Part shown: positions 7,974 through 21,112 of the stretch, piece by piece
Layout of the letters: every line of letters begins with the position of its first letter
Position numbering within the stretch: the stretch's first letter is position 1
DNA from: an uncultured Hyphomicrobiaceae bacterium
GTDB taxonomy: Bacteria > Pseudomonadota > Alphaproteobacteria > Rhizobiales > CALHAX01
NCBI GenBank assembly: GCA_937931785.1
Contig: CALHAX010000003.1
Location: 1-45,914 of the forward strand
Direction: 5' to 3'
Length of the DNA stretch: 45,914 bases
The notes under the pieces: model-generated
Told to the model about the DNA's origin: nothing
Seen by the model: only the letters and a program-made list of their open reading frames with translations
Databases searched by the model: none
Translations under genes and position numbers: made by a program

Positions 7974-9191
7974 TCAGCAGCGACCGAGACGTGTCCGCTC
8001 AAGACGATCACCAGTGAACGGATCGATCGTGACCCTGATCTTGCGACCGCGACGACATCCTTCGATCACCATCTCCACATTCTTGAGGCCACGGTCCGCG
8101 AAGCGGTCCACGATTGTTTCAAGGCGTGGTGACTCACATGGCCCACGATCACGTTCGTTGACCACTTCGCCATACTGAGACCAGCGGGTGACCAGACGTT
8201 TGCGCTCGCGGCATGATTCCGTTTCGTAGTTTGTACCTGGAATCGTGTTGAACTTGACCTTGCGGTAACCGTTCTTGCGCATCTCAACCAGAAGATCGGC
8301 ACGCGTCAGTGGTGCCGGGCATCGACCAATATTATACTCCTGAAGGATTTTACCAAACCGACCGAGCGTTATTTCTACCCGCTTGAGATCGCGGCAGGCT
8401 TCGACAACAAACCGTGGTGGTGTTTTGTCGATGACCTCGATGCGATTGAGACCACGTTCCTGAAGCACTTCAGGAATCTTTGACGCTGACAGTGGAGGGT
8501 CGCAACGGCCGATCCGCTTGCGATCCCGGATTACGCCACGGCGGTTGATGATCAGTTCGAACTGGCGCCCGTTGCGGCATGCTTCGGCGACGTAACGCGG
8601 GAGTTGACGATCCGTGAAACGAATCCGGTCGAACCCGTCATCGCGCAATTTTGCACGAATGTCGTCTGGACGTAGAGCGCGTTCGCATTCGCCGAGGTTA
8701 CGACGACCTGTTACTTCACCGAACTTGTCGATGCGCAAGCGCACACGCTCGTTGTCGCGGCACGCAATGGCAATATAGGGAATGCTGCCTTGTTCGGTGA
8801 TGTTGATGCGTTTGTATCCCTCTTTCTCAAGCTGCCGTTCGGCTTGCTCGATCGTTATGATCTGTTTGCAACGGCCGATCTCTGTTGCGCGCCGAATGCG
8901 TCCTGAAGAACGGATCTGCAAACTGTAACGCACGCCTTCCTTGCATGCTTCAGCAGTCGCCCGCGCCAGTTGGCGGCCAGTGATCTCGATTTCCGAGTAG
9001 CCTTGCTGCCTCAAATTTCGCCGGATCTTGCTGTCCGAAGCTCCGAATTGAAGTGTAAACTGCGCTTGATGAAGCGGGCTTTCCGCACGTGTATTTGTGT
9101 CGATTTTTGGTACGATCGATGCTGCGTTGGCCGGTAGTGCCAGTCCTGCAAACAGCAGAACTGCCGCACTAAGTATGGCTCGTCTGTTCAA
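7974..9191 (-). CDS. Secreted protein of six cysteine-paired 61-residue repeats, function unknown
   Basis: I do not recognise an assigned function. The 405 aa start with a signal peptide (MNRRAILSAAVLLFAGLALPANA, cleavage near residue 23), so the mature protein is periplasmic or outside. The rest is six tandem units following a pattern of helix, GY/GF..I.., Y.AEACR, R..L.I...G, IGRC. The only cysteines are 83/108, 144/169, 205/230, 266/291, 327/352 and 379/405: each pair is 25-26 apart and the period is exactly 61 residues for the first five units, with a shortened sixth. A disulfide per repeat is likely. The helix-then-strands layout with a Gly before the last strand resembles PepSY-like units. 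The protein is very Arg-rich and ends exactly on the last Cys. It is divergent from the CapA-like gene. Confidence 0.8.
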   Translation of the reverse strand: MNRRAILSAAVLLFAGLALPANAASIVPKIDTNTRAESPLHQAQFTLQFGASDSKIRRNLRQQGYSEIEITGRQLARATAEACKEGVRYSLQIRSSGRIRRATEIGRCKQIITIEQAERQLEKEGYKRINITEQGSIPYIAIACRDNERVRLRIDKFGEVTGRRNLGECERALRPDDIRAKLRDDGFDRIRFTDRQLPRYVAEACRNGRQFELIINRRGVIRDRKRIGRCDPPLSASKIPEVLQERGLNRIEVIDKTPPRFVVEACRDLKRVEITLGRFGKILQEYNIGRCPAPLTRADLLVEMRKNGYRKVKFNTIPGTNYETESCRERKRLVTRWSQYGEVVNERDRGPCESPRLETIVDRFADRGLKNVEMVIEGCRRGRKIRVTIDPFTGDRLERTRLGRC

Positions 9192-9415
9192 GATGAATTC
9201 CTCCCATGACCTTTATTATCGAGAGTGTCTCTTTGGACCCTCTGTCTTTTACACCCGGTGGTCACTATACGACTCTTGTGACAAAAATTGAACGCAGAGT
9301 TTCATTTTGATGATCTATCAGTGATCCGATGATAGAGAATCGTGAGAATGGCCGTAATGGCATACAGATGGAATGTGCTTTCAAACCCATTCACTGCGAA
9401 CGGCGAAAAAGAATT

Positions 9416-11170
9416 GTGAACAAAAACAAAGACCAAAGACGTTTTTTGCTCGGACTCATGCTTTGCTTCAGCGGTGTGTCTGCTGTTTGCAATGTCTCTG
9501 CATTGGCAGATGAAGTATCGAACGCGCGCGAGTCTGCAATACGCGACATGGCACTTACTCATGCTTTGCCTAGGGCGCTTACCGCAATTTCGCCATCAGT
9601 TGAGATGCCACCGCAGGCCGTCATCAAGATTGATCCGGAGTTACCGCAAAGGGTGTCGTCACGGCATCCTGATACGTCAACTGTAGTGCCTACTATCGCG
9701 GCGACAGCAGACACGCCTGCGCCTGTTTTCTCAAAACGCCAGTTGCGAGCCGTTGTTACTGCAACGGCGTCAACTGCCATTCAGGTGCAGACGCCGCCTG
9801 ACCCGGCACTGTCTGACGTTCCTCTACCCAGTGTGCCTCCCGATTCTACTTCGGTTGACTCGCCAGGTGATGCTGCGTCGGGCGATGCTCCCAAGCCAGA
9901 GCTGTTCGTTCTGGTTCTCGTGGGCGATACGGGGCTCAATGCACACAACCAGAAGGTCCGGCCTGCGAAGGCGATCCGGCATGGTCGTGGTTATGACTGG
10001 GACTGGACGACGCGGAAAATCGCCCCGCTCATTGATGGGCACGTAAATTTCGCAAATGTCGAAACGGTCGTGACAGACCACAACAAACATTATCCATCCC
10101 CCAAGTCGTTCAACTTCCGGATGCACACGAACGGCGCGCGCCATCTGGTTGATGTCGGGTTCAATGTCTTTTCGCTGGCGAACAATCATTCTGCGGATTA
10201 TGGGCGCGATGGGGTGCGCGATACGCTGAAAAATGCTGAAATTCTCCGGACGGCAGGACTGCGCGCTTATGCCGGCCTGGGGTTGGACCGTGCGTCTGCG
10301 ATCAAGAGCCAGACGTTCTCCATTGGTCAGGCGCGGTTCGGGTTCGCTGCCATGGGCATCGGGGCACGCCAGCCGGGTCCATCACGTGCAGGTGTGAACA
10401 AGCCCGGTCAAGTGAACATCTACGGCAAGGAAGATTTCAATGCGGTTGTCGATGATCTCGTTGAGGTGTCGGCGGACTTTCGTATTCTTTCCATGCACTT
10501 TGGGGCGGAGAGAAATGTACGCCCTCTGCCCGGTCAGGTGAAGAAGTGGCGTGATGATGTGCAAGTCGGTCGCGGCATTGATCTGATCGTCGGGCACCAT
10601 GCCCATGTGGTTCAGGGCGTGCAGATCACGGATGGCAAGCTGATTTTCTATGGTCTTGGAAATTTTCTGCATATGGGCATGCAGGACATGAGCAAGTTTA
10701 ATGCGTGTCGGGACTATGGATTGCTGGCACGTGTGTTCGTCGTGCGTCAGCCGGACGGAACGATGGAAGCACAGGCGGTTCAGGTTGTGCCGCTGACGGA
10801 TATGCATCTTCAAGCGCGGGCGCATCCGGTGAAATCCGCTGGTCGGCGGATCGACATACTCAACATGCTGGCTGAAGAGCTGGACGATGATCTGGCAGGG
10901 TCGCGCGGCGTGCGGTTTGCGAAACAGGTCGACGGTTCCGGTCTTTATTGTCGGCCTAGCGCGGCCCAGGGGCCAGGACGGTTGGGCAAGCTGTGCGCGG
11001 ATTTCGTACCGGCACCATCGCTTACAATTACTCAGAGGCGTCGCTTGCGCGGAATGTGCAGCTACACCCCACGTGTTGCATCGCGCAAGAAAGCAGGATC
11101 ACGGCGCGCATCGAAAAGTAAAAAGCGCCGCAAGAAGTGGACGGGACGGAACGTATTCAATCGGCAGTAA
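9416..11170 (+). CDS. Secreted CapA-family (poly-gamma-glutamate synthesis-like) metallophosphoesterase-fold protein
   Basis: CapA/PgsA-type protein, probably acting at the cell surface. From the GTG at 9416 (584 aa) it begins NKNKDQRRFLLGLMLCFSG, a good signal peptide ending near ALADE. Upstream in-frame starts (TTG-type near 9329, ATG 9368) would bury this signal, so GTG is preferred but not certain. Residues about 30-160 are a Pro/Ala/Thr/Ser-rich linker. The CapA domain follows from about 162: VGDTGLN, NFANVETV, FSLANNHSADYG, SMHFGAE and VGHHAHVVQGVQ. The tail after about 555 is strikingly basic (runs of Lys/Arg with Ser), suggesting contact with an anionic polymer. No other capsule-polymerisation gene is adjacent. 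Divergent from the six-repeat protein. Confidence 0.82.
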   Translation: MNKNKDQRRFLLGLMLCFSGVSAVCNVSALADEVSNARESAIRDMALTHALPRALTAISPSVEMPPQAVIKIDPELPQRVSSRHPDTSTVVPTIAATADTPAPVFSKRQLRAVVTATASTAIQVQTPPDPALSDVPLPSVPPDSTSVDSPGDAASGDAPKPELFVLVLVGDTGLNAHNQKVRPAKAIRHGRGYDWDWTTRKIAPLIDGHVNFANVETVVTDHNKHYPSPKSFNFRMHTNGARHLVDVGFNVFSLANNHSADYGRDGVRDTLKNAEILRTAGLRAYAGLGLDRASAIKSQTFSIGQARFGFAAMGIGARQPGPSRAGVNKPGQVNIYGKEDFNAVVDDLVEVSADFRILSMHFGAERNVRPLPGQVKKWRDDVQVGRGIDLIVGHHAHVVQGVQITDGKLIFYGLGNFLHMGMQDMSKFNACRDYGLLARVFVVRQPDGTMEAQAVQVVPLTDMHLQARAHPVKSAGRRIDILNMLAEELDDDLAGSRGVRFAKQVDGSGLYCRPSAAQGPGRLGKLCADFVPAPSLTITQRRRLRGMCSYTPRVASRKKAGSRRASKSKKRRKKWTGRNVFNRQ

Positions 11171-12281: not shown

Positions 12282-13271
12282 TTATCCGATTGCGTTTTGA
12301 GCCTTTTGGCGCGCTTCCGTGGGACTTTGTCCGAAAGTGCGACGGAACGCGCGTGCGAGTGTTGCTGCAGAACTGAAGCCACTGGCATCAGCGACCACCG
12401 AAACATCCAGAGGGCTTTGCAACATCAATCGACGTGCTGCGTTTAGCCGAAGATCGAGATAGTAAGTTTGTGGTGTGAGAGCGAGTGCTGTCCTGAACTG
12501 AAGCTCAAGCATCCTGTGGGAAAGGCCTACGGCCTTTGCAATTGTCGGGATGGACTTCGGTTCCGACAAGTTTTCTTCCATTATCCGTATGGCTCTCGCG
12601 ACTCTTGGATGTGTTGCTGCGAGCCGTCCAACCGAGACTACAGGTTGTGGGTCGGTGCCTGTGCGTTGCTGATCGTAGATGAAAACGCTCGCAGCATTGA
12701 GTGCGAGGTTCATGCCGTGTTGCGCTGTGATCAACGCGAGCATCATGTCGAGGGCTGGTGTTGCGCCGCCGGTTGTAAACACGGGACCGTCAATGACGAA
12801 ACGATCCGGAACAACAGTGATGTTCGGAAAACTCTCGGCGAAGAATTCCAGATCTTCCCAGTGAGTCGTCGCGCGCCGGCCATCCAGCAGTCCCGCGGCG
12901 GCGAGTGTCCAGCTTGCGGCCTCTACGCCTCCGATTGGTACGCGACGACGTGTGAGCCGGCGCAGTGCTGAGTGCATTTTCTTCTCCGCACGGCGGTCAT
13001 CTTGTGAGGCGATCAGGATGAGGGTGTCACGCACGTCTGTATCGTCGAACGCATCTTTCACCGCGACGGAGGCTGCGCTGGTCGACACGACCGGTGTGCC
13101 ATCGAGCGAGAGCAGGCGCCATGTGTAGAGCTGTTGTCCGGACACCCGGTTGGCCGCACGTAGAGGCTCCATGGTTGCGGCCAGGGACATCAGCGAAAAC
13201 TCCGGGAAGACCAGAATATCGACTGCGAACGGATCTGTGCTTTGGCGCGGTGTGAACGGAAAATTCGACAT
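12282..13271 (-). CDS. cdhR: GlxA-family AraC-type regulator, likely carnitine catabolism regulator CdhR
   Basis: Transcription activator with an N-terminal DJ-1/PfpI-like sensor domain (about residues 15-190) and a C-terminal AraC double helix-turn-helix (about 225-325, with [19 protein letters not shown] and the conserved [24 protein letters not shown]). Length is 329 aa, as usual for GlxA proteins. It is divergent from the 3-dehydrocarnitine cleavage gene across 115 bp, the typical place for CdhR, which responds to carnitine catabolites in Pseudomonas. The start codon lies 3 nt from a repeat-rich region, so autoregulation is likely. Family is certain; CdhR identity rests on context. Confidence 0.85.
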
Positions 13272-13273
13272 TG

Positions 13274-13319
13274 CGTATTTTGCGATGAAAATTTCGTATT
13301 TTGCATCGCATGATTTTCA
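13274..13319. promoter_or_regulatory. Putative CdhR operator region with direct and inverted repeats
   Basis: CGTATTTTGC occurs at 13274 and again at 13295, a 21-bp step equal to two helical turns, typical of AraC-family half-sites. Overlapping it, TGCGATG (13281-13287) and CATCGCA (13304-13310) form an inverted repeat with 16 bp between, and TGAAAAT/ATTTTCA adds a second dyad. It lies between the divergent cdhR-like and BKACE genes, touching the former's start, so it can control both. Confidence 0.6.
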
Positions 13320-13386
13320 ATGTGTGGCTAGCGTTTTGGAGCGAATACAGCCTGCTCCCAAGGGGCAGTCTCGGGAGGATCACGAT

Positions 13387-14283
13387 ATGAACTGGGATGT
13401 CTTCATTACATGCGCCGTGACGGGCGGTGGCGATACCACGGGCAAGTCGGACAAGGTGCCGGTGACGCCGAAGGAAATCGCTGATGCCGCGATTGAGGCA
13501 GCGAAAGCGGGGGCTGCGATTGCGCACTGCCATGTGCGCGATCCTGAAACCGGCAAGGCGGCGCGGGATGTGGCGTTGTACAAGGAAGTGGTCGATCGCA
13601 TTCGTTCAGCTGATACGGATGTTGTAATCAACCTGACAGCGGGCATGGGCGGTGACCTCGTACTCGGCGGGGTTGAAACCCCCTTGCCGCTGGATGCTGC
13701 CGGAACCGATATGGCTGGTGCGACGGAGCGGACGGAACATGTTCGGACGTTGCTTCCGGAAATCTGTACGCTCGATTGCGGCACGATGAATTTCGGCGAA
13801 GGTGACTATGTCATGACCAACACGCCCGCCATGTTGCGGGCGATGGCGAAGCAGATGACGGACGCGGGTGTGCGACCGGAGATCGAAGCGTTCGACACCG
13901 GACACCTTTGGCTGGCGAAGCAGTTGGTGAAGGAAGGACTGATCGAAGATCCTGTCCTGATTCAGCTTTGCATGGGCATTCCGTGGGGCGCGCCGGATGA
14001 CATGAACACGCTGATGGCGATGGTCAACAACATGCCTGAGGGGTGGATTTATTCTGCGTTCTCGATCGGGCGGATGGAGCTGCCGTATGTGGCGGCTGCT
14101 GCACTGACCGGGGCGAACGTGCGCGTCGGGCTGGAGGATAATATTTATCTCTCTCGGGGTGTGCTTGCGACGAACGGTGCCCTGGTGGAACGAGCTGTGA
14201 CGATCCTCGAAGCCATGGGCGCGCGGGTGATTGGTCCGGATGAGGCGCGAGAGAAGCTGAAGCTGCAGAAGCGGGTGGTTTAA
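13387..14283 (+). CDS. 3-dehydrocarnitine cleavage enzyme (BKACE / 3-keto-5-aminohexanoate cleavage family)
   Basis: Zinc-dependent beta-keto acid cleavage enzyme. In carnitine degradation it condenses 3-dehydrocarnitine with acetyl-CoA to give betainyl-CoA and acetoacetate. It is 298 aa. Zinc ligands H47 and H49 are in AHCHVRD, with a catalytic/metal Glu in the VGLEDN block near the C-terminus. The ATG at 13387 has GGGAGGA upstream; the frame continues upstream through the operator region, so the longer start is rejected. Substrate is inferred from the adjacent regulator and the carnitine dehydrogenase 0.5 kb downstream, since the family covers several beta-keto acids. Confidence 0.9.
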
Positions 14284-14754
14284 TCATGGCGCGCGGAGCA
14301 CTCTGCACTGAAAGCAGTTGTTGCTCGCGCTTCGTACGTCTGCGAACGCTATGTTTGAGTCGTGAAGTAAATTCTGAACGTGGCTGGAAATTGAAGGTGT
14401 TTCAACGATATCTCCGGTCCCGTAAACAATCCTTTCTTGTTGATCGTATCCGCGGACTAGGTAACGTTCGGACCGCAAAATATCGGGTGTCGATGTTGAC
14501 GGTGTCCAAGCTTTACAATCTCGTTCACAAAGAAAGATCGGCCCTGTTTCAGCGTAAGGATTTGTTGTCGCAAACGGGCGATGGGCAAGTATTAGGTAGT
14601 TCTCACCAGGCGGCGTTTCGCCAAGACAGTGTCGACATGGCCAAGCACCATCGTTTGACAGATGAAGCTCGACAGGATTGCCGTAAGCATCTTTCCGCGT
14701 TTTTCGTATGTGAGCAACGTGAGGGGTGGGTAAACCTACAAATTGGATTTCCAT
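14284..14754 (-). CDS. DUF1203 family protein
   Basis: Protein of 156 aa from a widespread but uncharacterised bacterial family. Visible blocks are PCRHCLGETPPGENYLILAHRPF, an ETGPIFLCERDC segment with paired Cys, and RSERYLVRGYDQQERIVYGTG. The start ATG 14754 has GGAGAACGCTA upstream; longer frames run into the carnitine dehydrogenase. The stop directly abuts the BKACE stop with no base between, and the start faces the carnitine dehydrogenase 83 bp away. It is therefore an antisense insertion inside the carnitine island. Four cysteines in two clusters hint at metal binding. Role unknown. Confidence 0.85.
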   Translation of the reverse strand: MEIQFVGLPTPHVAHIRKTRKDAYGNPVELHLSNDGAWPCRHCLGETPPGENYLILAHRPFATTNPYAETGPIFLCERDCKAWTPSTSTPDILRSERYLVRGYDQQERIVYGTGDIVETPSISSHVQNLLHDSNIAFADVRSASNNCFQCRVLRAP

Positions 14755-14785
14755 TAGCGTTCTCCGTTTTGGAGGTACGTGAAGT

Positions 14786-14833
14786 ATGAAACGCACTATG
14801 GCGACCCGTTTCTTGTTCAATGTACGGAAGTGA
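14786..14833 (+). CDS. Possible 15-residue leader ORF before carnitine dehydrogenase
   Basis: ATG at 14786 preceded by GGAGG 10 nt upstream encodes MKRTMATRFLFNVRK and stops 4 nt before the carnitine dehydrogenase ATG at 14838. Such spacing allows translational coupling. It could equally be chance, since it lies in a short divergent promoter gap. Confidence 0.25.
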   Translation: MKRTMATRFLFNVRK

Positions 14834-14837
14834 ATTG

Positions 14838-16325
14838 ATGAAAAGTATTCAGAAAGCAGGCGTCGTAGGTGGTGGTGTGATCGGTGCGGCGTGGGCGGCG
14901 CGGTTTGCGGAAAACGGGATCGACACGGTTGTCTTTGATCCAGCGCCGGACGCGCAGCGCAAGCTGGACGAGGTGGTGGCGCTGGCGGATCGGGCATACG
15001 CCAAGCTGACGCTCGCACCGCGCGCGAAAAAGGGCGCGATTACTCTAACCACCGATCTGGCTGAAGCCGTGAAGGACGCTGACTTCATTCAGGAAGCCGC
15101 GCCGGAACGGCTAGAGCTCAAGCAGGACTTGTTTGCCGAGATCGAGGGGCATGCGCGTGCGGATGTGATCATCGCGTCGTCCACGTCGGGCTTCAAGCCG
15201 ACGGACTTGCAGGCGAAGATGGTTCACCCGGAACGTCTGATTGTCGGACATCCGTTCAATCCGGTTTACCTTTTGCCTCTCGTGGAGATCATTGCTGGCG
15301 AGAAGAAGTCCGATGATGTCACAGCATCCGCGAAAGCGTTTTATGCGTCGATCGGTATGCATCCGTTGCTCATTCGCAAGGAGATCGATGCGTTTGTGGC
15401 CGATCGGCTTATGGAGGCGCTGTGGCGCGAGGCGTTGTGGCTCGTGAAGGACGACATCGCGACGGCGGAGGAAATTGATGATGCGATCCGGTTTGGGTGC
15501 GGATTGCGGTGGGCGCAGATGGGCACGTTTCAGGTGTTCAACGTGGCGGGTGGAGAAGCCGGCATGCGGCACTTCATGGCGCAGTTCGGACCGGCGCTGA
15601 AATGGCCGTGGACCAAGCTCATGGACACGCCGGAGATGGACGATGCGCTGATCGAGAAGATCGCGGTGCAATGCGAAGAACAGTCAGAGGGACTCTCCAT
15701 TCGCGATCTTGAGCGCATTCGCGATAACAATCTCATTGCGATCATGCAGGCGCTCAAGACACAGAAGTGGGGCGCGGGGCAAACTTTGCTCGACTACGAG
15801 GCGCAACTCTACAAACGTTCGCATTCCGGATCTTCTGAAACGGTGCATGATTTTTCTCAACTGATCCGCATGCATGAGACGGTCGTGCAGCCGGACTGGA
15901 CGGATTACAACAACCATATGAACGAAGCGCGTTATCTGCAGGTGTTCTGCGACAGCACAGATGCGTTTCTGAATATGATTGGTGTTGACCCGGACTACGT
16001 AGCGGGTGGGCACAGCTACTACACGGTCGAGACGCATATTCAGCACTTGCAGGAAGTGGCGGCTCTGGAGCCGCTCTACGTGAAAACGCAGATGATCAGC
16101 CACGACGAGAAGCGGATTCATCTGTTCCAGTGGATTTATCACGGCAAGACGGATGAAGTATTGGCAACCGGAGAACAAATGTTCCTGCATGTTGATGCCA
16201 ATGCGTCGAAGGCGTGTCCGGCAAAACCGGAGGTTCTGGCAAGACTTGGGGAGATATGGGACGGACATCAGCATTTACCTGCGCCTGAAGCTGCGGGCCG
16301 TGCCGTGGGGCAGAGACGATCATGA
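14838..16325 (+). CDS. L-carnitine 3-dehydrogenase fused to a betainyl-CoA thioesterase domain
   Basis: Bifunctional 495-aa protein. Residues about 1-320 are a 3-hydroxyacyl-CoA-dehydrogenase-type fold that oxidises L-carnitine to 3-dehydrocarnitine with NAD+; the Rossmann loop is GGGVIGAAWA at about residue 11. Residues about 340-475 are a 4-hydroxybenzoyl-CoA-thioesterase-like hotdog domain beginning with the VQPDWTDYNNHMNEARYL signature. Fusions of this kind occur in rhizobia and relatives, where the thioesterase releases glycine betaine from the betainyl-CoA made by BKACE. ATG 14838 is chosen over 14820 because GGAAG sits at the right distance. The stop overlaps the next start (ATGA). Confidence 0.93.
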   Translation: MKSIQKAGVVGGGVIGAAWAARFAENGIDTVVFDPAPDAQRKLDEVVALADRAYAKLTLAPRAKKGAITLTTDLAEAVKDADFIQEAAPERLELKQDLFAEIEGHARADVIIASSTSGFKPTDLQAKMVHPERLIVGHPFNPVYLLPLVEIIAGEKKSDDVTASAKAFYASIGMHPLLIRKEIDAFVADRLMEALWREALWLVKDDIATAEEIDDAIRFGCGLRWAQMGTFQVFNVAGGEAGMRHFMAQFGPALKWPWTKLMDTPEMDDALIEKIAVQCEEQSEGLSIRDLERIRDNNLIAIMQALKTQKWGAGQTLLDYEAQLYKRSHSGSSETVHDFSQLIRMHETVVQPDWTDYNNHMNEARYLQVFCDSTDAFLNMIGVDPDYVAGGHSYYTVETHIQHLQEVAALEPLYVKTQMISHDEKRIHLFQWIYHGKTDEVLATGEQMFLHVDANASKACPAKPEVLARLGEIWDGHQHLPAPEAAGRAVGQRRS

Positions 16326-17086
16326 CGGCGCAGCGTGTTCTGATCACCGGTGGTGCGTCGGGCATCGGGCATGCCATGGCAATGGTGTTCGAGTCGGCTG
16401 GTGCACAGGTCTGGGTGACGGATGTCGATGCTGATGCGTTGGCGACGTGCCCTGCGGACTGGGGCAAGGCGTGCCTCGATGTGACGGATGAAGCGGCGAT
16501 GGCGACGTTGTACGCGGATATCGAGAAAGACTGGGGTGGTCTTGACGTGTTGTGCGCCAACGCCGGTACGTCCGGACCGGCTGCGAACATCGAGGATATG
16601 GATCTTGCCGATTGGCGGCGGTGCGTTTCGGTGAGCCTGGACGGAGCGTTTCTTGCGGCGAAGTATGCGGCGCCGATGATGAAGCGGCAGAAGGCCGGCG
16701 TCATGCTGGTTACGTCGTCGACGGCGGGGTTCTTTGGGTATCCTCGCCGGTTACCGTATGCGGCGGCGAAGTGGGCATTGATCGGGCTCAAGGAAACGTT
16801 GGCGATGGAGCTTGGTCCGCATGGCATTCGTGTGAATGCACTATGTCCCGGCGCTGTCGAGGGGCCACGGATGGATGGCGTGATCGAGCGGGAATCTGCG
16901 GTGACCGGCAAGTCGCCGGAGCATATTCGCAAAGCCTATGCGTCCGGGACGTCCATGCAAACGTGGGTTACCGGCAATGACATTGCCGAGATGGCCGTGT
17001 TTCTGGCGTCGCCACAGGCACGTTTCGTCTCCGGCCAGACGATTGCCGTCGACGGCCATACCTACAATCCAGACCCAGCAGTCTGA
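16322..17086 (+). CDS. Short-chain dehydrogenase/reductase
   Basis: Classical SDR of 254 aa, NAD(P)-dependent. Cofactor loop TGGASGIG (residues 9-16), NAG at 80-82, and catalytic S133, Y146 and K150 are all present. It overlaps the carnitine dehydrogenase by 4 nt and is followed 12 nt later by the acyl-CoA dehydrogenase, so it belongs to the same operon. The acidic residues at the end of strand beta-2 (TDVDAD) favour NAD over NADP. A plausible role is oxidation of a carnitine-related hydroxy compound such as the D-isomer, but the sequence alone does not show this. Confidence 0.88.
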   Translation: MTAQRVLITGGASGIGHAMAMVFESAGAQVWVTDVDADALATCPADWGKACLDVTDEAAMATLYADIEKDWGGLDVLCANAGTSGPAANIEDMDLADWRRCVSVSLDGAFLAAKYAAPMMKRQKAGVMLVTSSTAGFFGYPRRLPYAAAKWALIGLKETLAMELGPHGIRVNALCPGAVEGPRMDGVIERESAVTGKSPEHIRKAYASGTSMQTWVTGNDIAEMAVFLASPQARFVSGQTIAVDGHTYNPDPAV

Positions 17087-17098
17087 GGAGATTATTCC

Positions 17099-18262
17099 AT
17101 GCACTTTGCCCTGACTGAAGAACAGCAGATGATCGTTGACACGACGCGGGCGTTTGTCGCGAACGAGCTCTATCCGCACGAAGACGAGATCGAGCGGACC
17201 GGAAAGTTGCGTCCCGAGTTACGGGATGAACTGAAGGCCAAGGCGATGGAGGCTGGGCTTTACGCGGCGAACATGCCGGAAGAGGTCGGCGGCGCTGGAC
17301 TCGATACATTGACGTGGATTCTTTACGAGAAAGAACTGGGGCGTGCGAACTATGCGTTACACTGGACCTGTGTCGGGCGACCGTCAAACATCCTCATGGC
17401 GTGCGAAGACGATCAGCGAGAGACCTATCTGTTGCCTGCAGTTCGTGGGGAGCGGGCTGATTGCCTGGCAATGACCGAGCCGGATTATGGGTCTGATTTA
17501 CGCGGCATGAAGACGTTTGCGAAGACTGATGGCGATGATTTCGTGATCAACGGAGTGAAACATTTTATCTCTCATGCAGAAGAGGCGGATTTTGTTGTTC
17601 TGTTCGCTGCGACGGGGGAGGAGGAAACGTCTCGTGGTCCGAAGAAACTGATCACAGCGTTTCTGGTTGATGTCGGACATCCGGGTTTTACCGTTCGTGA
17701 TGGTTACGCCAACGTCTCGCACCGGGGTTACAACAACTCCATTCTGGAATTCGATAATTGTCGTGTTCCGAAGACCGCAATTCTTGGAGAACTGCACAAG
17801 GGCTTCGATGTTGCGAACGAGTGGTTGGGTGCGACGCGTTTACAGGTGGCAGCCACATCGATCGCGCGGGCTGAGCGGGCACTGGAGCACGCTGTGCAAT
17901 GGGCGGTGGATCGCAAGCAGTTCGGACAGCAGATCGGAAAGTTTCAGGGTGTGTCCTTCAAGCTCGCTGATATGGCGATGGAGCTGAAGGCGGCAGAGCT
18001 GCTTACGCTGGAGGCTGCCTGGAAATTCGATCAGGGCACGGTTACGGATGGTGATATGGCGATGGCCAAACTCAAGGCGACGGAGATGCTGGCGATGGTC
18101 GCGGACGAGGCGATCCAGATTCACGGGGGTATGGGGTTGATGTCCGAGTTGCCGCTGGAACGGATCTGGCGGGATGCTCGTGTGGAACGAATCTGGGAAG
18201 GCACAAGCGAGATCCAGCGGCATATTATCTCCCGTGGGCTGTTGCGCCCCTTAGGTGGTTAA
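17099..18262 (+). CDS. Acyl-CoA dehydrogenase, likely gamma-butyrobetainyl-CoA dehydrogenase
   Basis: FAD-dependent acyl-CoA dehydrogenase of 387 aa. Family landmarks are the N-terminal LTEEQQMIVDTTRAFV, the central CLAMTEPDYGSDLRGM FAD/substrate block, RKQFGQQIGKFQG, and the C-terminal IWEGTSEIQ with the likely catalytic base region. Next to an acyl-CoA ligase and CaiD, it most likely introduces the double bond that turns gamma-butyrobetainyl-CoA into crotonobetainyl-CoA. That substrate is inferred from neighbours. It uses GAGGAG before ATG 17099, and its stop sits right at the start of the ligase gene. Confidence 0.88.
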   Translation: MHFALTEEQQMIVDTTRAFVANELYPHEDEIERTGKLRPELRDELKAKAMEAGLYAANMPEEVGGAGLDTLTWILYEKELGRANYALHWTCVGRPSNILMACEDDQRETYLLPAVRGERADCLAMTEPDYGSDLRGMKTFAKTDGDDFVINGVKHFISHAEEADFVVLFAATGEEETSRGPKKLITAFLVDVGHPGFTVRDGYANVSHRGYNNSILEFDNCRVPKTAILGELHKGFDVANEWLGATRLQVAATSIARAERALEHAVQWAVDRKQFGQQIGKFQGVSFKLADMAMELKAAELLTLEAAWKFDQGTVTDGDMAMAKLKATEMLAMVADEAIQIHGGMGLMSELPLERIWRDARVERIWEGTSEIQRHIISRGLLRPLGG

Positions 18263-18263
18263 G

Positions 18264-20324
18264 GTGACCTACGATCTCTCTCGCCTCTTGCGACCGAAAT
18301 CTATCGCGGTGCTGGGTGGATACTGGGCGGAGCGGGTTGTCGAACAGTGCACGAAGATGGGATTTTCTGGCGAGGTCTGGCCGGTGTCGCCGTCGCGGGA
18401 TGTGCTAGCTGGCGTGCGCTGTGTGCCAACAGTTGAAGACCTGCCATCCGCGCCGGACGCTGCGTTTATCGCGGTGAACCGACATGCGGCGCTTGATACA
18501 ATTGGCAAGCTGCAGGCGATGGGTGGGGGAGGCGGTGTCTGTTTTGCCTCCGGGTTTTCAGAAGTCGGGGAAGAAGGCGTCGCGCTTCAGAAGCAGTTCG
18601 TTGAAATTGCTGGTGAGATGCCGGTACTTGGGCCCAACTGCTACGGTCTGATAAACTATCTTGACGGGGCATTGCTCTGGCCGGACCAGCATGGTGGCAA
18701 ACGGCTTGATCCTGCAACAGGGCGCGGCGTGGCGCTGCTTTCGCAATCTGGCAACATCGGTCTTAATCTGACGATGAACCGGCGCGGTGTTCCCATCGCC
18801 TACATGGGAGCGCTTGGCAATCAGGCGCAAACCGGGTTGGCGGAGCTGACGGCAGCACTGGCGCAAGATGCGCGTGTATCAGCGATTGGTATTTATCTCG
18901 AAGGTCTAACGGATGCGCCGGCATTTGCGGACGCGGTTTCTGTGGCGCATGATCATGGCGTGCCAGTTGCGGTGCTGAAGGCTGGTCGGTCTGCAAAGGG
19001 TGCGGAACTTGCGCTCAGTCATACGGGGTCGCTGGCCGGATCCGATATGGTGATGGATGCTTTCTTTGAGCGGATTGGAGCCATCTCTGTTCCCTCGATC
19101 ACGACGTTGCTGGAAGCCATGAAAATCCTTCATGTCTACGGTCGTTTACCTGGAAAGACCATGATCTCGATGAGTTGTTCTGGTGGTGAGGCGCTCATGA
19201 TCTCCGACATAGCAGAACACACCCATCTTGATTTTCGTGCATTGTCGACAGAAGAAAAATCACGAATAAAGTCGACGACGCATGATCTTGTTACGGTCGA
19301 TAATCCGTTTGATTACCATACGTTTGATTGGGGCAAATGGGATAGGGCCGGTAAGACGTACAAGGAAGTGCTGTCGTGCGACTTCGATATGACTGCGCTT
19401 GTGCTGGATTTTCCGCGTGATGATCGATGCGACCCGGAAGACTGGATCAATGCGGCGGAAGCACTGCGGAAGGCTCAAGTCGTGACTAACGCACGTGCTG
19501 CTATCATTGCCAGCATGCCGGATTTGTTGCCCGAAGCTCTCGCCGATAAGCTTGTGGTGGATGGTATTGTTCCACTTCTGGGTCTGGAAGATGCGCTGCA
19601 TGCGATCGATGCCTGCTCGACGCCGGTGCCAACCGAACCTGCTCCGACATTTCCTTCGCAAAGTCCCAGCACGACGGGTTCTGTTAAAAATCTCACGGAA
19701 TGGGATGCCAAACGCAAGCTCGCTGGTCATGGATTGATTGTGCCTGATGGTGCGTTATGCCAATCTTCGGCGGACGTATTGGCTGCCTTTAGCCATATCG
19801 GTGAGCCGGTTGTGGCAAAAGCCGTTGGACGTGACCTGTTGCACAAGACCGAGCTCGGTGCCGTCAGATTGAACCTGGCGAACGCCGAGGCCGTCATTGA
19901 GGCTTACGACATACTGGCGCCGATGGGTGAGGCCGTGTTGGTGGAGGCCATGGCGGCGAGGCCCGTCGCGGAACTCATCGTTGGTGTCCGGCGTGACCCG
20001 ATCGTTGGGCTTTATATGCTGTTGGGTTCCGGTGGAATTGCTGCTGAACTGGTGCGCGATACAAAGGTATTGCTCTTGCCTGTTTCAGAAGATGCTGTGC
20101 GCCGTGCGTTATCGGGATTGCAACTCGCGCCGTTGTTGACCGGCTTCCGCGGGCGGGCCAAAGGCGATCTGGATGCTGTCATACGAGCTGTGATGGCCGT
20201 TCAGGCTTGCGTGCTTTCGATGACTGATGAACTTGAAGAGCTTGAAATCAATCCACTGCTTGTCCACGCTGAGGGACAGGGTGCGACAGCGGTTGATGCG
20301 TTGATACGCGTGAGGGAGCGATAG
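18264..20324 (+). CDS. ADP-forming-type acyl-CoA ligase (acetate-CoA ligase family), likely betaine-CoA ligase
   Basis: Two-part enzyme of about 686 aa: an N-terminal CoA-binding/succinyl-CoA-ligase-like region (about 5-450) with SIAVLGGYW and the phosphohistidine-type motif LSHTGSLAGS, and a C-terminal ATP-grasp part (about 480-686) with VVAKAVGRDLLHKTELGAV. Such enzymes form acyl-CoA from an acid, CoA and ATP, giving ADP. In this operon the expected substrates are gamma-butyrobetaine, crotonobetaine or carnitine, in place of an AMP-forming CaiC. GTG 18264 is preferred because TAGGTGG lies 6 nt before it; GTG 18255 overlaps the preceding gene and lacks a site. Followed 2 nt later by caiD. 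Confidence 0.88.
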   Translation: MTYDLSRLLRPKSIAVLGGYWAERVVEQCTKMGFSGEVWPVSPSRDVLAGVRCVPTVEDLPSAPDAAFIAVNRHAALDTIGKLQAMGGGGGVCFASGFSEVGEEGVALQKQFVEIAGEMPVLGPNCYGLINYLDGALLWPDQHGGKRLDPATGRGVALLSQSGNIGLNLTMNRRGVPIAYMGALGNQAQTGLAELTAALAQDARVSAIGIYLEGLTDAPAFADAVSVAHDHGVPVAVLKAGRSAKGAELALSHTGSLAGSDMVMDAFFERIGAISVPSITTLLEAMKILHVYGRLPGKTMISMSCSGGEALMISDIAEHTHLDFRALSTEEKSRIKSTTHDLVTVDNPFDYHTFDWGKWDRAGKTYKEVLSCDFDMTALVLDFPRDDRCDPEDWINAAEALRKAQVVTNARAAIIASMPDLLPEALADKLVVDGIVPLLGLEDALHAIDACSTPVPTEPAPTFPSQSPSTTGSVKNLTEWDAKRKLAGHGLIVPDGALCQSSADVLAAFSHIGEPVVAKAVGRDLLHKTELGAVRLNLANAEAVIEAYDILAPMGEAVLVEAMAARPVAELIVGVRRDPIVGLYMLLGSGGIAAELVRDTKVLLLPVSEDAVRRALSGLQLAPLLTGFRGRAKGDLDAVIRAVMAVQACVLSMTDELEELEINPLLVHAEGQGATAVDALIRVRER

Positions 20325-20326
20325 AT

Positions 20327-21112
20327 ATGAGCGACACACCATTTCACATTGAGCGCCGCGGAGCTGTGTATGAGTTCACGCTTGATCGACCGAAAGCCAA
20401 TGCGATCGATGCGGCAACAAGCAAGATGATGGGGGACGCGTTTGCCGAATTCCGTGATGATCCGGAGATGCGCGTTGCGATCATCACTGGCGCAGGAGAA
20501 AAATTCTTCTGCCCGGGGTGGGATTTGAAAGCTGCTGCTGACGGAGAAGAGGCCGATAGTGATTATGGCGTTGGTGGTTTTGGGGGGCTGCAGGAGCTTC
20601 CAAACCTGAACAAACCTGTAATCGCTGCCGTGAACGGAATTTGTTGTGGTGGCGGGTTCGAGTGGGCGCTTTCAGCCGACATTATCCTGGCGTCTGAGAC
20701 AGCATCGTTCGCGTTGCCGGAAATTCGTTCGGGTACGATTGCAGATGCTGCGACAGCGAAACTGCCGAAGCGGATTCCCTATCATGTTGCGATGGAGTTA
20801 CTGCTGACCGGTCGCTGGTTCGAGCCTGAGGAAGCGCATCGGTTGGGACTTGTGAACGAGATCGTGCCAGCGGGTGAACTCATGGCGAGGGCGCGGGAAC
20901 TTGCCGACCTTTTGGCGAGTGGGCCTCCTCTCGTTTACGCGGCGATCAAAGAAGTGGCGCGCGCTGCTGAGACAATGAGTTTTCAGGAGACGATGGACGG
21001 GATGAATAACCGCACGTTTCCAACCATTGCGACGCTTTATGCGAGTGAAGATCAATTGGAGGGTGCGCGGGCGTTCGCTGAAAAACGCGATCCGGTGTGG
21101 CAGGGGAAGTAG
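20327..21112 (+). CDS. caiD: Crotonobetainyl-CoA hydratase CaiD
   Basis: Crotonase-fold enzyme that hydrates crotonobetainyl-CoA to L-carnitinyl-CoA. It is 261 aa, the same length as E. coli CaiD, which it resembles closely from LDRPKANAIDA through RVAIITGAGEKFF, GWDLKAAA and NKPVIAAVNG to the C-terminal AFAEKRDPVW. Catalytic acids E112 (GGGFEWALSAD) and E132 (ALPEIRSG) correspond to E. coli E111 and E131. It is last in the plus-strand operon 14838-21112. The ATG has GGGAGCGA upstream. With the ligase and dehydrogenase it closes a route from gamma-butyrobetaine to carnitine. Confidence 0.93.
   Translation: MSDTPFHIERRGAVYEFTLDRPKANAIDAATSKMMGDAFAEFRDDPEMRVAIITGAGEKFFCPGWDLKAAADGEEADSDYGVGGFGGLQELPNLNKPVIAAVNGICCGGGFEWALSADIILASETASFALPEIRSGTIADAATAKLPKRIPYHVAMELLLTGRWFEPEEAHRLGLVNEIVPAGELMARARELADLLASGPPLVYAAIKEVARAAETMSFQETMDGMNNRTFPTIATLYASEDQLEGARAFAEKRDPVWQGK

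Follow-up and report, generated by a model that had tools for sequence, protein, structure and literature searches.

PepSY propeptides are inhibitors or chaperones of M4 peptidases. The PepSY/BLIP-like proteins as a whole are described as poorly understood in the available parts of one report (PMC10653890), which nevertheless place some of them in envelope integrity and some PepSY proteins, namely, CopD, TseB, and YpeB, in wall synthesis or spore germination. In those same parts, the PepSY domains of CopD show no interaction with transpeptidase domains, and those of YpeB seem to make no contact with SleB (PMC10653890). An inhibitory role has been proposed for the BLIP-like superfamily in the portion available of a second report (PMC2954215).

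The window, by which we mean the whole stretch of 45,914 nucleotides that was analyzed from an uncultured Hyphomicrobiaceae bacterium, encodes a six-unit protein with a signal-peptide-like start (Table 1). Its twelve cysteines fall to the residue where the preliminary description had placed them (83/108, 144/169, 205/230, 266/291, 327/352, and 379/405), with none elsewhere, and the proposed period of 61 residues is found in 8 of the 10 spacings between each cysteine and the next but one. When 12 cysteines were placed at random in 200,000 trials, the maximum number of equal spacings was 5; none of the placements matched the observed 8, and chance periodicity was rejected. Unit 6 follows a gap of 27 residues, compared with 36 between the other units. 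The spacing of 26 in the last pair is peculiar to the source genome, the value being 25 in all of the 17 other six-unit proteins, in which the first pair is spaced by 24 to 26. The units had been described as strongly diverged, and their average identity within the window protein is 27% (16 to 42%). A motif located between the first two strands, D-R-x-L-P-x-Y, marks canonical units; it is wholly or partly retained in units 3 and 4, and for that reason these two are the leading candidates to contain a binding site. The gene had also been credited with its own terminator, and a hairpin with a T tail does lie 3' of the stop codon, but terminator-like sites are at chance level in the region (3 against 2.3 expected), and so their count is itself no evidence.

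Table 1. Features of the six-unit gene and of neighboring genes, in window positions (residue numbers refer to the encoded protein)
Feature	Position	Strand	Basis
Gene of six-unit secreted protein, 405 aa, TTG start	7974..9191	-	ORF and Cys positions
Ribosome-binding-site-like GGGAGG, 8 bases ahead of TTG	9200..9205	-	Read in sequence
Signal-peptide-like N terminus, about residues 1-23	9123..9191	-	By eye
Unit 1, residues 49-108, Cys 83/108	8868..9047	-	Cys positions, full-length model, unit mapping
Unit 2, residues 109-169, Cys 144/169	8685..8867	-	Cys positions, full-length model, unit mapping
Unit 3, residues 170-230, Cys 205/230, family motif DRQLPRY retained	8502..8684	-	Modeled singly, pLDDT 90
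Unit 4, residues 231-291, Cys 266/291, best conserved among 18 six-unit proteins	8319..8501	-	Cys positions, model, unit comparison
Unit 5, residues 292-352, Cys 327/352	8136..8318	-	Cys positions, full-length model, unit mapping
Unit 6, residues 353-405, shorter, Cys 379/405, helix and three strands in model	7977..8135	-	Cys positions, model, unit comparison
Terminator-like hairpin, 14 pairs, T tail, after stop	7945-7914	-	Terminator scan
CapA/PGA_cap protein, Lys/Arg-rich C-terminal tail	9329-11170	+	PGA_cap/CapA match (PF09587), 157.5 bits
Gene cluster, presumably of carnitine or betaine breakdown	12282-21112		

Searches of Pfam and NCBIfam returned no family match for the window protein, the sole Pfam line at E<=10 being Spb1_C (0.23), and no line for PepSY_2 (PF13670) appeared at E values up to 10. 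Three matches to proteins of solved structure (FliG twice and an RNase P subunit; E 0.2 to 0.51) were chance-like and were not accepted as relatives, and the unit profile had no match among the sequences of solved structures. In PHROGs the best line was a family of unknown function at an E value of 0.0066. Neither plasmids nor phages gave a match to the window protein, nor did plasmids give one to a two-unit relative.

The spacing within the cysteine pair was assessed over 161 units from 31 multi-unit proteins and was 25 in 152, 26 in 6, 24 in 2, and 27 in 1. These counts accept only spacings of 24 to 27, exclude the OmpA pair, retain near-copies such as L081/L082, and derive from proteins picked by hand from 47 unit-bearing open reading frames; every mapped unit of the 31 proteins was paired except for one weak fragment at L095. 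The 130 gaps between units in the same proteins range from 27 to 67. Mapping to the profile covered 217 unit regions: 188 contain the two cysteines, 28 contain neither, and a single region contains one, and this lone apparent half-pair reflects a two-residue insertion in the unit that shows the spacing of 27. With near-copies removed, the corresponding counts were 143, 18, and 1. Exactly the 25-spaced pair is also carried by single-unit proteins (e.g., L024, L025, L026, and L046). Because the spacing of 25 is kept while the gaps vary, because single-unit proteins have the pair, and because there is no true half-pair, the cysteines belong to the unit, and disulfides are very likely formed within units. 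Bonds between neighboring units (Cys108-144, Cys169-205, and so on) would instead staple the array head to tail, in a register that roughly resembles that of the pair in PepSY_2, with one cysteine ahead of the helix and the other at strand 2. However, such bonds would leave Cys83 and Cys405 to pair with each other, they would account neither for gaps that vary from 27 to 67 under a fixed spacing of 25 nor for the pair in single-unit proteins, and we regard this arrangement as very unlikely.

The both-or-neither pattern may itself rest on one or two events, since a tree of the units requires just two changes between the states "pair" and "none" (8 of the 217 regions were dropped as gappy, 162 of the remaining 209 were kept under 72% identity, and 16 of the 159 inner branches are starred). 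The pair was thus probably gained once or twice, and the strong point is that it has persisted in units of low sequence identity, not that both cysteines were repeatedly lost together. The preliminary description held that the disulfide framework is what is selected. The pair is indeed strongly kept despite drift, but it is not alone in this: in 48 aligned units, a glycine that follows the helix equals both cysteines in invariance, and a leucine of the helix and a glycine two residues before the last cysteine are each conserved in at least 90%. Departures from the usual complement are found in L097, with one cysteine in total, and L098, with one in its mature part, both located near the end of the second unit, where truncated alignments left them unplaced. 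L111, the fourth and a weak relative (E 8e-6) in the source genome, on contig C101, has the 25-residue pair with a third cysteine between, and L143 has further Cys outside its units.

An AlphaFold2 model of unit 3, built on an alignment of 48 rows taken from the window and from named loci, consists of one helix (residues 7-16) and four strands (20-26, 31-38, 41-48, and 53-61), with a pLDDT of 90.1 and a pTM of 0.73. The first cysteine, Cys 37, is located close to where strand 2 ends, and the second, Cys 62, immediately past strand 4; in the model a bond between the two would fasten the end of strand 4 to the hairpin formed by strands 2 and 3. A full-length model made from four aligned rows (pLDDT 77.8) gives units 1 to 5 the same layout as unit 3; at its pTM of 0.36 the relative orientation of the units is not fixed. 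The top two rows of a Foldseek search with the unit were periplasmic proteins of the DUF2874 type (E 0.18 and 0.22), and the third was a Mediator subunit. In VIA-align the top row was YpmB (Z 6.9, rmsd 2.5, 59 residues), followed by a Clostridioides difficile lipoprotein and YpeB, with a designed protein and phosphotransferases also at Z 5 to 6. Structural scores of this size (Z at most 6.9) could, by themselves, mirror a common arrangement. A Foldseek search with the whole array returned 161 matches at E<=0.001, and these were rejected, the rows shown (propellers and others) having TM scores of 0.08 to 0.12 on the query and an rmsd above 20 A.

DsbC chains were also among the structural matches (Z 5.2 to 5.5, rmsd 4.5 to 5.5), and the N-terminal domain of DsbC belongs to the same fold class. 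This raises a reading in which the cysteines are redox active, as part of a thiol-disulfide sensor or an isomerase accessory. DsbC_N has been suggested as a possible relative of DUF2874 in the portion available of PMC2954215, and a gene for the methionine sulfoxide reductase SelR adjoins two six-unit genes in related genomes. CxxC is absent, however, and cysteines placed 25 residues apart at strand ends fit structural bonds, which makes a redox function highly improbable.

Firmer evidence than these structural matches comes from profile comparison with PepSY_2. Using hhalign, the units scored 38.6 (probability, 94.2%) against the PepSY_2 domains of related genomes, whereas the best of 100 column shuffles scored 16.1 and the reversed profile 9.0; the score was 37.5 with cysteines changed to alanine and signal columns removed. 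Against PepSY (PF03413) the units reached 15.3, not above the top shuffle (15.5), and only the Cys-less units scored higher, at 38.8. When 18 Cys-less unit sequences served as a bridge, hhalign probabilities were 99.0% to the units, 97.4% to PepSY_2, and 94.6% to PepSY. The Cys-less two-unit relative L098 scores 30.2 bits with PepSY_2, above the Pfam cutoff of 24.3, and the orthologue L008 scores 17.6 bits, below it. By this comparison the units share common descent with PepSY_2. Together, the fold model, the profile homology with PepSY_2, and the single-unit proteins bear out the earlier proposal of a PepSY-like repeated unit with its own cysteine pair. PepSY_2 is present in 29 of 41 genomes of the order; in the source genome itself, neither PepSY_2 nor PepSY was matched at the thresholds applied.

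PepSY units had been said to lack such cysteines. This stands for the position of the pair in the window units, where strands 2 and 4 end, but not for the presence of a pair as such: 17 of 28 PepSY_2 rows have two cysteines, the first preceding the helix and the second at strand 2, a criterion that is our own reading rather than a published definition. The other 11 rows have neither, one of them with a cysteine elsewhere (loci L152-L181; 28 of 30 were compared, the partial L173 and L174 being excluded). The window units do not carry this PepSY_2-type pair. Relatives with yet other spacings include four unit regions with cysteines 20 rather than 25 apart (L123, L131, and L133 twice) and three weaker relatives with cysteines 47 apart (on L035, L046, and L056). 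Given these placements, the PepSY-type fold seems to have carried a cysteine pair at several places across its relatives.

The distribution of the module was assessed by profile searches with a single unit, as the preliminary description had recommended, and 55 of 397 genomes of the order matched (source genome included, E<=1e-5). The window protein matched 21 of 121 whole genomes (E<=1e-3), namely, its own and 20 others of the same order. Class-wide and phylum-wide draws, both of which contain many same-order genomes, gave unit-profile matches in 3 of 387 genomes (its own and two of another order) and in 4 of 299 (its own and three of the same order), respectively. A scan of named genomes, made with the window protein only, found no relative. 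In the genomes sampled, the module thus appears to be nearly confined to the Hyphomicrobiales.

The spread of repeat number, also recommended for study, runs from one to six copies. Six units alone make up the window protein and 17 others, and six units joined to an OmpA domain, which is a peptidoglycan-binding domain, are found at L040-L043. Four units with OmpA occur on contig C60 of the source genome and in G038, and three with OmpA on contig C13 of the source genome and in G009 and G008, so that two OmpA-joined sister proteins are encoded in the source genome; L037, truncated at the edge of its contig, shows five units together with OmpA. Forms with three, two, or one unit and no OmpA also exist. 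All 10 OmpA-looking sister proteins scanned exceed the Pfam cutoff for PF00691, at 52 to 82 bits (L002, 82.1; L017, 81.6; L022, 80.1; L092, 71.3; L037, 68.3; L043, 66.8; L041, 65.2; L018, the same protein as L040, 63.5; L042, 55.2; L094, 52.2). Among the single- and two-unit relatives, proteins from several genomes end in a tail, (V/I)RAPF(V/A)D(L/V), that is often duplicated (L026/L075, L115, L119, L120, L129, L137, L138, L139, and L140). In L024, L025, L046, L048, and L056, the single unit is preceded or followed by segments rich in His, Gly, Tyr, and Lys that resemble surface or metal-binding sequences.

The 18 six-unit proteins were compared unit by unit, the last 12 cysteines of each being taken as six pairs. 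In 306 comparisons per unit, units 1, 4, and 6 matched their own position 282, 262, and 302 times and units 2, 3, and 5 did so 170, 169, and 120 times, with the rest falling mostly on other middle units. Mean pairwise identity was 0.47 for unit 4 and 0.32 to 0.40 for the others. This pattern would suit a six-unit array that arose by a single assembly and has since been inherited, its middle units being alike.

Net charge is positive in 18 of 18 six-unit open frames, at +11 to +57, as it is in three forms with one or two units, at +29 to +39. Such proteins could act as a basic sponge, whose positive surface would bind anionic envelope polymers (lipopolysaccharide, capsule, peptidoglycan stems, or extracellular DNA) and stiffen or link the envelope without regulating any enzyme. 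The charge does not extend to all forms, however, as an OmpA-joined four-unit protein has only +4 and two single-unit forms have -1 and 0, and the most conserved positions are cysteine, glycine, and leucine; we consider this explanation rather unlikely.

The gene divergent to the six-unit gene had been called CapA-like, and its product does match that family (Table 1). The two genes share an intergenic region in the window, and the two proteins might on this basis work jointly in capsule or polymer synthesis. However, a CapA-like relative was detected by tblastn (E<=1e-4) at none of the 17 other six-unit loci, nor were any of the five window neighbors tried, the CapA-like gene included; the flanks searched span 21 bases to 8.2 kb per side, with two loci ending within 140 bases, so that this absence is incomplete. 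As the neighbor is not conserved at other six-unit loci, the partnership was rejected and appears extremely unlikely.

Neighborhoods were compared using open reading frames of at least 120 amino acids, longest first, a procedure that at L079 picked a false reversed frame. In four loci the six-unit genes stand beside what we take to be clpB and a MOSC-like gene, and in three of these four (three genomes, one family) a gene for an M23 peptidase is close by. A gene for a YkuD L,D-transpeptidase adjoins the six-unit gene at L038 and at L095 is one gene removed from a three-unit gene. One further gene family is found near the six-unit gene in three loci (L036, 1140-2003; L077, 9479-10081; L083, 4964-5614) and is its immediate neighbor at L036. 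On contig C60 of the source genome, some 2.4 kb separate the four-unit gene with the OmpA domain from presumed rsmH-, ftsL-, and ftsI-like genes of the division and cell-wall cluster (L091, 460-3480 and 5904-7331). Recurring neighbors are limited to few genomes. Since neighborhoods vary by family and there is no conserved partner gene, the wall-enzyme neighbors may be due to chance. The M23 genes, together with the PepSY_2-like ancestry of the units, could point to a protein that inhibits or chaperones a single secreted peptidase, after the manner of the PepSY propeptides, but in the six-unit loci compared no peptidase gene recurs in any other family, and six differing units suggest several sites or a scaffold rather than a single target; this role seems to us quite unlikely.

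We hypothesize, at a probability of roughly 0.4, that the window protein is a disulfide-stapled array of PepSY-type units serving as a multivalent scaffold that acts on the cell-wall machinery. The protein would be exported to the periplasm, judging from its signal-peptide-like start, and would fold as six helix-plus-strands modules originating from a PepSY_2-like domain, each with a disulfide that, as conservation suggests, would staple strands 2 and 4 together at their ends. The family deploys the module singly, in short arrays, or as arrays with an OmpA domain; the array of the window protein is free, and its OmpA-joined sisters would be held on the wall via peptidoglycan. Such an array could form a rigid multivalent binding scaffold for envelope proteins, and its likeliest ligands may be enzymes that build or cut peptidoglycan. 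The role in relation to wall enzymes is proposed by analogy with the PepSY proteins CopD, TseB, and YpeB and with the inhibitory role suggested for BLIP-like proteins. Against this reading, the PepSY domains of CopD and YpeB are, in the parts of the literature available, possibly not the contact surface, and the window protein has no OmpA domain. A bolder version, which we consider doubtful, would make these proteins a distinct class of wall regulators found almost solely in the Hyphomicrobiales, i.e., disulfide-hardened PepSY arrays, free or pinned by OmpA, that hold several wall enzymes and in which the position of the disulfide differs between sister families.

Six-unit arrays or the joining of PepSY units to OmpA in this order were not reported among the literature matches listed, which were mostly open full text. 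The family adds a branch that has no model of its own among the libraries searched and that occurs in six-copy, OmpA-joined, and single-unit forms within one order. These forms provide a natural series for testing what copy number and wall anchoring contribute, and close relatives that carry a cysteine pair at differing places on one fold offer a case for disulfide movement.

Among described systems, PepSY_2 (PF13670) resembles the units in its helix and strand layout, in being secreted and common in the same order, and in its significant profile-profile similarity. It differs in that the 28 domains compared are mostly in short proteins and in that those domains with a cysteine pair have it ahead of the helix and at strand 2. 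The BLIP-like superfamily (BLIP, DUF2874/PF11396, SmpA_OmlA, and PepSY) has, in the portion available of PMC2954215, a helix on a four-stranded antiparallel sheet and comprises periplasmic or secreted proteins with tandem copies. The copies number one in SmpA_OmlA, two in BLIP, DUF2874, and CopD, and three in YpeB in the available parts of PMC10653890 and PMC2954215. The H-E-E-E-E layout predicted for unit 3 may correspond to this arrangement, and superfamily members lead its structural matches, but at Z values of no more than 6.9 and a best Foldseek E value of 0.18. YpmB/TseB, CopD, and YpeB are similar in having tandem extracytoplasmic PepSY domains, and YpmB is the top VIA-align row. CopD differs in being a membrane protein of a Gram-positive organism (PMC10653890, in the parts available), and the window protein has no anchor beyond its signal-peptide-like start as judged by eye. 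The C-terminal domain of OmpA (PF00691) was not found by Pfam in the window protein, its orthologue L008, or L089, and it terminates sister proteins of three, four, and six units. The family is best placed as a branch of the PepSY/BLIP-like kind rather than as a new fold.
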